From the NCBI GenBank assembly GCA_030016635.1, contig JASEJQ010000010.1, positions 1-50,946 on the forward strand: 50,946 nt of DNA. The letters run 5' to 3'. Shown one piece after another: positions 40,951 through 49,753 of the stretch. Both the position numbers and the translations under genes were made by a program. The notes under the pieces are model-generated. The model was not told the origin of the DNA. It did no database searches and saw only the letters and a list, made by a program, of their open reading frames with translations. The DNA comes from Thermoanaerobacteraceae bacterium. Lineage in GTDB: Bacteria; Bacillota; Thermoanaerobacteria; Thermoanaerobacterales; UBA4877. The number at the start of each line of letters is the position of its first letter. Position 1 is the first letter of the stretch.

Positions 40951-40975
40951 AAAGGGGCTTAAAAAGCCCCTTTTA
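40951..40975. terminator. Bidirectional terminator between the TAXI operon and the NRAMP-type gene
   Basis: AAAGGGGCT/AGCCCCTTT stem (40951-40959, 40965-40973) with A/T flanks serving both converging transcripts. Confidence 0.85.
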
Positions 40976-42207
40976 AAATATGGAGAAAAACAGCAGCAGA
41001 ATGGTTAGAACTATGATAAATCCTGTGGTCAGCCATGCTATTATATTAAATATCCTGGAGTTTACATACTCTCCCATCAGTTCTTTATCATTTACCAGTT
41101 TTATTATAAAAATCAATATTACGGGGACGAGTATGCCATTTACTACCTGCGATATCAGCATCACCCTTATGAGATTTACCTTGAAGAATGTTATTATACC
41201 AGCTCCAATTATAATGAGGGTGGTATAGAGCGAATAGAAAATCGGGGCTTCAGAAAATTCGTTGTCAAGGCCGCTTTCCCAGCCAAAAGCCTCACATATA
41301 ACATAAGACGTGGATAAAGGTAATACACTGGCGGCCATCACAGAAGCACCAAAAAGTCCTGCACCAAAAAGCAGGTAAGCATACTCTCCTGCCAGCGGTT
41401 TTAAGGAGATTGCTGCATCTGCGGCTGTATTTATAGTTATTCCGTTAGAGTGCAGCGTGGCGGCAGTGGTGACAATAATGAAAAAGGCGATAATGTTGGC
41501 CATAACAGCACCTACAAAAACATCCAGTCTTTCGTACTTGTAATGCTTTATAGTTATGCCTTTATCTACAATGCTTGACTGTAGAAAGAACTGCATCCAT
41601 GGGGCTATTGTTGTACCTACCATGCCGATAAATAACTGCATAAAATTACCATCCATCTCAATGGTTGGTACCATTGTGCTTTTTAGCACAGTACCCCAAT
41701 CTGGTCTTACAATAAAGGCTGCAGCGATATATGACAAGAGTGTAATGGCGAGGGCTAAGAAAAATTTTTCTGCTGAGGAGTAGCTCCCTTTTATTATAAT
41801 AATCCATATTACTACAGCCATGATAGGGACCGATATATGTCTGCTTATCCCAAATAGTTCCATACTGGCTGCAATACCGGCGAATTCAGATATAATAATG
41901 GTTACATTGGCAATCATGAGTGTCAGCATGGCAAAAAGGTCCATTTTACACCAAACTGTTCCCTTATAAGAGCTGCAAGACCTTTACCTGTAACGGCGCC
42001 CATCCTGGAACACATCTCCTGGGCAACACATAGACTGAAGGTCATGAGGAACATTCCCCACAGCATCTTATAGCCGTATGAGGCTCCAACGCTGGCATAT
42101 GTGGCTATGCCGCCGGCATCATCTCCTGCTGCAGCGGCAATGAGGCCAGGCCCTATTATGCTAAAGAGGAAGAATATATTTTTTAACCTGTTATTTCCAG
42201 CCCGCAT
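40973..42207 (-). pseudogene. NRAMP-related (probable magnesium) transporter gene, frameshifted
   Basis: The N-terminal part (ATG 42207, reading MRAGNNRLKNIF and GLIAAAAGDDAGGIATYAS) ends early after FGVKWTFLPC. The remainder continues in the -1 frame from FAMLTLMIANVTIIISEFAGIAAS to the stop at 40973. One extra base in the five-T run (41933-41937 on the plus strand) would restore FGVKWTFFAML, the family sequence. The metal-site motifs of true Mn/Fe NRAMPs (DPGN in helix 1, MPHN in helix 6) are replaced by DDAGG and APWMQ, as in NRAMP-related magnesium transporters. The M-box upstream agrees. It may be a recent null mutation, slippage-rescued, or a sequencing error. Confidence 0.8.
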
Positions 42208-42208
42208 A

Positions 42209-43453
42209 TCAAACACCTGCCATCCTTGTAAACCATCTCCTTCTGATGGTTGAGATCTCATCAATTATATCATTCACCATTAATACACCTGAGAGTACAT
42301 TGTTTTCGTCAACTACAGGGATTGCCAGAAGGCCGTATTTTATAAACAGCTCTGCAGCATCCCTTATAGGATCTGTGTCCTTAAGTGTTATCACGTTTGT
42401 ACTCATTATATCCCTCAACATTGTGTCAGGCGTTGATACTACAAGGTCTCTTAAAGAAACTATACCCACAAGGTGTTCCTCTATGTCCTGGACATAGAGA
42501 TAATATGGTACATCCGATGAGGGTTTTAATTCTCGTAAAGTGCGCAGAGTCTCTTCTACGGTCATATCAGGAGAAAAGGAAATATACTCTGTGGTCATTA
42601 TTGAACCTACCTCGTCCTCTTCGTAATCCATCAATTCCCTTATTTCTTCAGCATTTTCAATTTCCATATGGTTCAGTATAGAATCAGCCTCTTCTTCATC
42701 GAGATTTTCCAGAAGGTCGGCAGCATCATCACTGGACATGTTTTCTATTATCTTTACGGCTTTATCCTCATAAAGGCTTTCAATTATATTTTTTTGAACC
42801 TCTGGTTCAATCTCTTCTAAGATATCTGCAGCCCTCTCTTCGTCAAGACTATTTATAAAGGTGGTTCTGTATTCACTGCTCATATCTTCAAGTATATCTG
42901 CAAGGTCTGCAGGGTGCATATTTAAAAGTTTCTTATATGGTATTACGAGTTTGAGACTGTCTTCCTCTCTCTCCAGAGGTTCCACTCCATGCCACGGTAT
43001 GAGAATATCCATGTTTATCTTTTTGCTCAGGCCAACAAGTCCAAGTCTTCTTAATAGTCCAGAAAAGCCTGTATCGACAGAATTTATATAATAATTTCCT
43101 TCTTTAGCTACAATGAGTATATCATTAACCCTGATTACCTTTTTGCCGTTAACATCTACTATTTGTTTATCCAGCAGGTTTTTTGCCAGAAATATGCCGT
43201 TGCTTTGATGTCTTGCAGATGTGGGTCGGTCAACTATAAAGGAGATATTCTTGTTTTTTGTTATTTCTAATTTTTTCCACATAAGTTCTATCTGACTGTT
43301 TCGCTTATCTCTGATAATAATAGAGACCACCCTGGGAAATTCTTCATCCAGGGTAGCATACATATCCACAAGATGGCCAAGGAGTATGCCATTTGTGTCA
43401 TATACGGGCTTAGACATAAGCCTGCTGAAATATATCTCGTTTATAATGGACAT
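42209..43453 (-). CDS. PRC-barrel / MgtE N-domain / CBS-pair regulatory protein
   Basis: The 414-residue soluble protein has PRC-barrel-like repeats in the first 150 residues (SRLMSKPVYDTNGILLGHLVDM and later KNLLDKQIVDVNGKKV). An MgtE intracellular N domain follows (about 175-285; MHPADLADILEDM, repeated AADILEEIEPE and DDAADLLENLDEEEA). A CBS pair (290-405) ends the chain. It lacks the MgtE membrane domain, so it resembles the gating half of the MgtE channel. It overlaps the operon with the NRAMP-type gene (stop 2 bases before ATG 42207). It probably senses magnesium or nucleotides for that transporter. Confidence 0.88.
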   Translation of the reverse strand: MSIINEIYFSRLMSKPVYDTNGILLGHLVDMYATLDEEFPRVVSIIIRDKRNSQIELMWKKLEITKNKNISFIVDRPTSARHQSNGIFLAKNLLDKQIVDVNGKKVIRVNDILIVAKEGNYYINSVDTGFSGLLRRLGLVGLSKKINMDILIPWHGVEPLEREEDSLKLVIPYKKLLNMHPADLADILEDMSSEYRTTFINSLDEERAADILEEIEPEVQKNIIESLYEDKAVKIIENMSSDDAADLLENLDEEEADSILNHMEIENAEEIRELMDYEEDEVGSIMTTEYISFSPDMTVEETLRTLRELKPSSDVPYYLYVQDIEEHLVGIVSLRDLVVSTPDTMLRDIMSTNVITLKDTDPIRDAAELFIKYGLLAIPVVDENNVLSGVLMVNDIIDEISTIRRRWFTRMAGV

Positions 43454-43469
43454 AAAATTCCCTCCTTAA

Positions 43470-43562
43470 TTAAGAGGGGATCCATTCCATGGGTGGGATA
43501 TGAAAACCCTCTTGATTATTATTTACACTACATCGGTATATATTACTGCCATCCGGGTCCAT
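43470..43562 (-). CDS. Small ORF of 30 codons after the M-box terminator
   Basis: ATG 43562 follows an excellent SD (GGAGGTGAGG, three bases before the ATG) and runs 30 codons to TAA 43470. The peptide starts MDPDGSNIYRC and ends HIPPMEWIPS; it has acidic residues and several prolines, including PP, and no membrane span. It lies between the riboswitch terminator and the MgtE-like gene; its stop is four bases before the SD of the next gene. It could be a leader peptide or a small partner of the transporter. No homologue was recognised. Confidence 0.5.
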   Translation of the reverse strand: MDPDGSNIYRCSVNNNQEGFHIPPMEWIPS

Positions 43563-43578
43563 GATCCTCACCTCCAAA

Positions 43579-43608
43579 TAAAAAAGTCCTTCACCGACAG
43601 TGAAAGAC
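43579..43608 (-). terminator. M-box-controlled terminator
   Basis: On the minus strand GTCTTTCAC/GTGAAGGAC (one G-U pair, loop TGTCG) is followed by TTTTTTA, directly after the M-box aptamer. Confidence 0.88.
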
Positions 43609-43619
43609 AATAAATCTTC

Positions 43620-43786
43620 CCACCGTCTGAGCTTTGGCACTATCCAGCATAGGGTTAATACCCAACTGCGTTAAGTAAAACCTTGATACGGTAATACCTG
43701 TTTACCCATTGGCATCTCTCGATGTTTCCGGGCAGCAGCCTCTATCTGGATAGGAGCCTCACCTATCGGTGAATATTTACCTTCTA
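43620..43786 (-). promoter_or_regulatory. M-box magnesium riboswitch (ykoK leader)
   Basis: The minus strand carries the M-box core in order: GATAGGTGAGGCTCCTAT, GGCTGCTGCCCGGAAACATC, GAGAGATGCCAATGGGTAAA, CAGGTATTACCG, and a closing GCTGGATAGTGCCAAAGCTC. Magnesium binding in this family favours the terminator, so high Mg2+ should shut off the MgtE-N/CBS and NRAMP-type genes. Confidence 0.95.
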
Positions 43787-49555: not shown

Positions 49556-49753
49556 CATGCAACATCAAATGCATCCTTAAAGTGAGTCCATGATACTCTT
49601 AATAAGAGGCAAATGTAGCCGGGGCATCTGGCATGGACGCCAGATGAGCCGACTTGAGGCATGGACGCCGAATGGAGGCGTATCCGGCGGAATGTAGACA
49701 CGAATGATAGAGTATCAAGACGAACGCCTAGGCGCATAGATGTTGCTGGCATG
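49556..49753 (+). repeat. Dispersed structured repeat, copy C (between crt and hbd)
   Basis: This 198-bp copy is bounded by CATGC and GCATG, with inner arms AACATC/GATGTT and GATACTCT/AGAGTATC. Its first internal hairpin is CATCTGGC/GCCAGATG with loop ATGGAC; copies A and B have a different stem sequence at the same place but stay paired. It shares GGCAAATGTAGCC and GGCATGGACGCCG blocks with copy A. The copy lies in the 351-bp gap inside the presumed crt-hbd-thl operon, on the sense strand; the remaining gap sequence shows no gene. Confidence 0.85.

Follow-up and report, generated by a model that had tools for sequence, protein, structure and literature searches.

In the window analysed here, a stretch of 50,946 nucleotides, a 30-codon open reading frame (uORF) between an M-box riboswitch and a Mg2+ transporter operon is likely to encode a regulatory leader peptide and, following the M-box, to form a translational Mg2+ attenuator. 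The best reading of the related loci is that this attenuator is used either with an M-box or alone. Short M-Asp-x-x-Pro leader peptides form a widespread, apparently undescribed class in clostridia, and they probably serve as a second, translation-based Mg2+ sensor that controls access to the start site of the transporter genes.

All parts of the locus lie on the minus strand, in the order M-box, terminator, Shine-Dalgarno (SD) sequence, 30-codon ORF, SD, PRC/MgtE_N/CBS gene and Nramp gene. The aptamer of the M-box (ykoK) Mg2+ riboswitch (43611..43777) matched RF00380 over its full length (147.3 bits, E 1.5e-33). Both features of the M-box class were present, a score above the gathering threshold and an intrinsic terminator (GTCTTTCACTGTCGGTGAAGGAC and T tract, 43577..43608) with a 10-bp stem (43608-43586) and a T run. 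The uORF (MDPDGSNIYRCSVNNNQEGFHIPPMEWIPS, 43470..43562) comprises ATG, 30 codons and TAA; the sequence upstream contains its SD, GGAGGTGAGG (43566..43575), and its stop codon lies 2 nt from the SD of the next gene, AAGGAGGG, or 4 nt from GGAGGG within it. Of the 30 residues of the peptide, 4 are Pro, 2 are Asp and 2 are Glu, with Asp2-Pro3-Asp4 at the start, and a Pfam search found no match to any family. The first-pass annotation had correctly described a 30-codon ORF with a strong SD right after the M-box terminator, ending four bases before the next SD, and its wording of a proline-rich, partly acidic peptide was fair. The first gene of the controlled operon (42209..43453) encodes a PRC-barrel/MgtE_N/CBS protein (Pfam PF05239, PF03448 with E 1.7e-30, and PF00571), and the next one (40973..42264) an NrmT-like Nramp transporter (PF01566 on both halves). 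NrmT, as described in PMC4072509, is a Mg2+ transporter related to Nramp and accompanied by an MgtE-like ancillary gene, and the same succession of an MgtE_N/CBS ancillary gene and an Nramp-related transporter was found here, with the Nramp frame broken by 1 nt. DNA alignment with the intact gene of a second genome of the family, G001, placed this missing base near 41935 (41944-41923, minus strand), where it splits the gene into two ORFs; it is either an assembly or sequencing error or the mark of a broken transporter in the source genome. Elsewhere in the window, a TwoAYGGAY RNA (RF01731) at 49577-49730 (+) scored barely over the gathering score (45.7 vs 43).

Apart from the source genome, G001 was the one member of the family that the analysis found. 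It has the same operon, with a CBS protein 86-87% identical, and its uORF also has 30 codons: MDPDGSNIYRC is unchanged, codon 4 carries a silent change and the far end differs. The wider sample comprised 161 M-box loci, spread over 90 related genera of the same phylum, in which the uORF was picked blind to its residues, by SD strength, start codon and a length of 10-90 aa ahead of the first long gene. A short SD-preceded ORF was present at 108 of these loci, and collapsing by genus and N-terminus left 75 distinct ones; the main genes at these loci (n=111) served as baseline for codon 2 and the motif. Codon 2 was Asp or Glu in 53/75 distinct uORFs against 16/111 main genes (Fisher p 4e-15), and an acidic residue in residues 2-6 together with Pro in 3-8 occurred in 46/75 against 4/111 (Fisher p 5e-19). 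Typical starts were MDSGP, MDPDP, MDGDPSP, MDTDPDG, MDDPYPG, MDAGPS and METDPG. Such starts were found ahead of four kinds of gene, namely NrmT, MgtE, CorA and P-type ATPase, the last three classes being assigned from first residues and gene lengths rather than by profile search. The 30 codons and MDPDGSNIYRC kept in G001, and the position and motif recurring in about 50 genera, indicate that the uORF is more than a chance sequence. The first-pass annotation had suggested looking for a conserved peptide at the same place in M-box operons of related clostridia and regarded a lack of conservation as evidence against its reading; what the codon 2 counts revealed is a conserved N-terminus, and selection at codon level was clear.

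Since the lysine and TPP riboswitch loci of the same genomes were without the motif, a generic effect of any riboswitch was rejected. Among 60 such loci, 9 had a short SD-preceded ORF, and the acid/Pro motif occurred in 0/9 of these. At the lysine riboswitch loci L130-L133, L139 and L140, all from one genus, an 8-codon ORF (MSMCKIGS or MSMCKLDS) with an 8-nt SD match was observed about 21 nt past the lysine aptamer, and it may be a chance sequence of the expression platform. The acidic uORF was absent in about 40 of the 90 M-box genera, indicating that the translational layer is common and not universal. Furthermore, in a subgroup ahead of P-type ATPases the motif was rich in Asp and Gly and without Pro. 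The second M-box of the source genome (L038, G000:C98) is followed by a uORF, MDDGGNSMNGGSTGICN..., with the same strong SD and, at a long distance, by an 881-aa gene resembling a P-type ATPase. Relatives start MDGGGSS... and are Asp/Gly-rich without Pro, and their leader segment GGTATATGTAAT has a complement recurring further down.

The association with the Mg2+ transporter operon was also seen from the side of the protein. A single CBS protein as query gave no relatives, while an alignment of five relatives recovered 474 in the profile search. As a set independent of the first, 80 loci with organism names were taken from the search with this five-protein alignment and 60 of them examined (43 Firmicutes and 17 from other phyla). 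An SD-led acid/Pro uORF preceded the CBS-NrmT operon in 35/43 of the Firmicutes loci, which belonged to Clostridium, Caloramator, Pelosinus, Desulfosporosinus, one Paenibacillus and others, with starts such as MESGPCGGR, MENGPYGGR, MEGGPLSRR, MDSGPEH and MDPDPS; the 17 loci from other phyla, which also carry the CBS gene, gave one candidate uORF. In 12 of the 35 uORF loci (L268, L269, L271, L274, L276, L282, L292, L293, L297, L307, L318 and L328) no M-box match was found in the upstream DNA examined, even at E 0.5. For several of them a promoter-like site was located 34-125 nt upstream of the uORF, so near that an M-box would hardly fit in between, if at all. The peptide module is thus separable from the riboswitch, and the idea that the uORF is a mere accessory of the M-box was disfavoured by the same 12 loci.

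The 35 named leaders also indicated at which level selection acts. The entropy of codon 2 was 0.19, 0.19 and 1.95 bits at positions 1, 2 and 3, and its usage was GAT 12, GAA 10, GAG 6 and GAC 6; all four GAN codons were used, indicating that the acidic residue itself is conserved and that the peptide is under selection. Codon 5 was CCN in 32/35. In the window, codons 2-5 (43548..43559) encode Asp-Pro-Asp-Gly, which on the codon 2 counts and the codon-position entropy of the homologues we propose as the Mg2+-sensitive pause or abort motif. Two features of MgtL/mgtQ-type leaders were found, a Mg2+ transporter gene immediately preceded by a short uORF with its own SD, and one or more early acidic residues, usually with proline, selected as peptide. 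The conserved portion of the uORF comprises the first 4-6 residues only, while the length varies from 14 to 85 aa and the C-terminus is free to vary. Within 12 genomes of one genus, GTGGAGGGGTGCTAA inside the uORF was conserved as DNA while its frame varied, so that it is read in all three frames (WRGAN, CGGVL and VEGC-stop); this segment, element 1 of the pairings described below, is therefore conserved as RNA. Conservation of RNA only was accordingly rejected for codons 2-5, from the codon-position entropy, and accepted for element 1. Its complement, element 2, is located either at the uORF end or beyond it and can also pair with the SD region of the main gene (element 3). In the same 12 genomes the pairing of elements 1 and 2 (1:2) was standard in 180/180 pair cells with one double compensation, while slid controls reached 44-57%; the covariation within the genus is weak by itself, as 76/500 shuffles reached the same.

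Around the SD of the transporter operon, alternative hairpins were predicted. Element 1 (AAGAGGG, uORF codons 17-19, 43507..43513) can pair with element 2 (CCCTCTT, the last uORF codons, 43472..43478) in an anti-sequestering hairpin of -17.2 kcal/mol. Element 2 can instead pair with element 3, the SD AAGGAGGG of the CBS gene (43460..43467), through CCCTCTT:AGGAGGG, and this hairpin 2:3 (-10.1 kcal/mol) would hide the SD. The corresponding values in G001 were -24.9 and -12.6 kcal/mol. In addition, element 0 (ATGGACCC, 43555..43562) pairs with GGGTTTTCAT (43509-43500), in the region of element 1, in the predicted minimum-energy fold, so the untranslated leader is predicted to fold as 0:1 + 2:3; 0:1 was also part of the minimum-energy fold of the MDSGPY-type family. 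As a side observation, hairpin 2:3 (43478-43460, minus strand) also scores as terminator-like, with a 7-bp stem followed by AATTTTATGT, and it directly covers the CBS gene's SD and start. The arrangement was assessed by a switch test, in which element 2 had to pair with the SD as well as with a segment further upstream, inside the uORF or close to it, and the best such element was scored against dinucleotide shuffles of the leader. Singly, the window gave p 0.02 and G001 p 0.005. Among 60 M-box loci, 18 were below 0.05 and 42/60 were not (combined p ~1e-12), and in the named set 14/35 were below 0.05 (combined p 5e-12), both combined values being rough because related loci are not fully independent. 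Most single loci beyond the NrmT operons failed the three-element test individually. The element sequences differed strongly among lineages while their complementarity was retained. Prediction and comparison thus point to a third feature of the MgtL/mgtQ type, mutually exclusive RNA structures that link the uORF to transporter expression.

From these comparisons we infer that the uORF is translated and that Mg2+ is the signal to which its translation responds, by pausing or by drop-off. With ample Mg2+, ribosomes would get past the Asp/Pro codons at the start of the uORF and on to element 1, which they would cover; element 2 would then pair with element 3, the SD would be closed and translation of the transporter operon would stay low. 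When Mg2+ is low, the early acid/Pro motif (codons 2-5) may make ribosomes pause or drop off, as shown for enteric MgtL and mgtQ, and element 1, typically at codon 14-20, would be free to capture element 2 and expose the SD. High Mg2+ would mean off at both layers: the M-box would end transcription and the peptide would limit translation. The first-pass annotation had considered a second, translational layer by such an acid- and proline-rich leader after the riboswitch, and comparison at the level of sequence strongly supports it, with the predicted hairpins tying the uORF to the SD. The weakest mechanistic step for the source locus is the position of the uORF stop within 2:3, 2 nt from the next SD. 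Re-initiation from there could favour translation and change the sign of control, and the terminating ribosome could alter the result by re-initiation or by occlusion; the sign given above would thus be provisional for this compact locus. The simple scheme in which complete translation is followed by hairpin 2:3 fits families with spaced elements, and was set aside as not clean at the source locus with its stop within 2:3. Several loci have a uORF overlapping the main gene and must work differently from a three-element switch. At L043, L044, L072, L081, L040 and L206 the uORF crosses the MgtE or CorA start out of frame, and at such loci (e.g. L043, L044, L040) a ribosome that continues along the uORF could directly impede the start of the main gene.

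The adjacency of stop and SD in the source locus and G001, where they adjoin or overlap, permits re-initiation, and the arrangement could thus be one of plain translational coupling, with the CBS gene re-initiated from the uORF stop and the early residues not being Mg2+ sensors. We consider this unlikely, since it leaves unexplained both the conserved acid/Pro start with its free third codon positions and the strong tie to Mg2+ transporter loci, and many loci have a uORF stop 30-100 nt from the next SD or a uORF overlapping the main gene. The residues might also be read through something else than Mg2+ on the ribosome, namely the charging of tRNA for Pro or Asp or the status of EF-P, as proposed for Salmonella mgtP. 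Proline is frequent at codon 5, mgtP was described as responsive to charged tRNA-Pro (PMC8092293), and EF-P was reported to affect mgtA translation (PMC6460261). However, there is usually a single proline beside the acids, conservation is highest for the acid at codon 2, and the free exchange of Asp and Glu fits charge rather than one tRNA; this reading is therefore quite improbable.

That the ORF encodes a small protein, a subunit or regulator of the transporter, would agree with its strong SD and its first position in the operon, and in M. tuberculosis an M-box is followed by a conserved uORF without an assigned function (PMC12810186). But conservation does not extend over the full length: 4-6 N-terminal residues are kept among lengths of 14-85 aa, a Pfam match is lacking, and within one genus the C-terminus is read in different frames. 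The small transporter subunit offered as an alternative in the first-pass annotation was therefore not upheld, and we give a small protein very little credence. Elements 0-3 give stable hairpins, as would be expected if the ORF were due to chance and the RNA hairpin were all that is conserved, but the codon-position entropy at codons 2, 4 and 5 and the strong SDs in nearly all cases make this hardly credible. The preferred reading remains that of a leader peptide acting as translational attenuator.

Our searches of the open literature, which takes in few subscription journals or preprints, brought up no previous description of acid/Pro leaders following M-boxes in Firmicutes. Mg2+-dependent destabilisation of the ribosome by acid/Pro nascent chains is a regulatory sensor known from enteric bacteria. 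We lean towards the view, somewhat beyond an even balance, that Gram-positives (Clostridia and some Paenibacillus) have a large class of Mg2+-sensing nascent peptides, M-[DE]-x-[G/D]-P, which arose independently, serves all four importer classes (NrmT, MgtE, CorA and MgtA) and is either stacked behind an M-box or replaces it. If this is true, ribosome destabilisation by early acid/Pro residues would be a general bacterial Mg2+ sensor and no enteric speciality. The loci with both elements would represent a natural two-layer sensor, first of transcription and then of translation, and in part a peptide would have replaced a riboswitch. It would also suggest that assays of M-box control confined to mRNA have missed half of the regulation.

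Among the systems described earlier, C. acetobutylicum Ca_c0685 is alike in having an M-box (RF00380) with an NrmT operon, made up of an MgtE-like CBS gene and an Nramp gene (PMC4072509). In the accessible part of that study the transcript alone was measured, by S1 mapping, and no leader ORF was named (PMC4072509); a translational layer would, on that part, have escaped notice. In M. tuberculosis, short ORFs (uORF1 and uORF2, rv1805A) likewise lie between the M-box and the operon, with sequestration of the SD (PMC12810186). However, compared by description, uORF1 is poorly conserved, uORF2 is a regulated conserved gene, and sensing through Asp/Pro was not proposed. Salmonella mgtQ, an 8-aa uORF between mgtC and mgtB, shares the acidic codon 2 and the strong SD; its Asp2 and Glu5 act with alternative stem-loops that free the RBS of mgtB (PMC8092293). 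In mgtQ and, by prediction, in the clostridial leaders, one of two alternative sets of stem-loops (1:2 + 3:4 vs 2:3) hides the RBS of a Mg2+ transporter gene, with control at the level of translation. But mgtQ is enterobacterial, belongs to an operon under PhoP without a riboswitch and has no sequence homology to the clostridial module, which follows an M-box or occurs by itself and belongs to NrmT, MgtE, CorA and MgtA genes. MgtL of enteric mgtA has an EPDP motif at which ribosomes drop off at low Mg2+ (PMC11282234). It resembles the clostridial leaders in its very early Asp/Glu-Pro motif (EPDP vs DPDG, DPDP, DGDP and DSGP) and in the Mg2+ transporter gene downstream, and here too translation is expected to abort at low Mg2+. 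The target of MgtL is a Rho-dependent terminator, whereas the target here would be the SD of the next gene, with an M-box and its intrinsic terminator upstream. The likeness to MgtL and mgtQ is one of layout, across different phyla and with no homology demonstrable to either; given the different operon context, it is more likely due to convergence. If clostridia share the principle, a ribosome-based metal sensor would have evolved repeatedly by convergence, from unrelated sequences and beside a riboswitch for the same ion.
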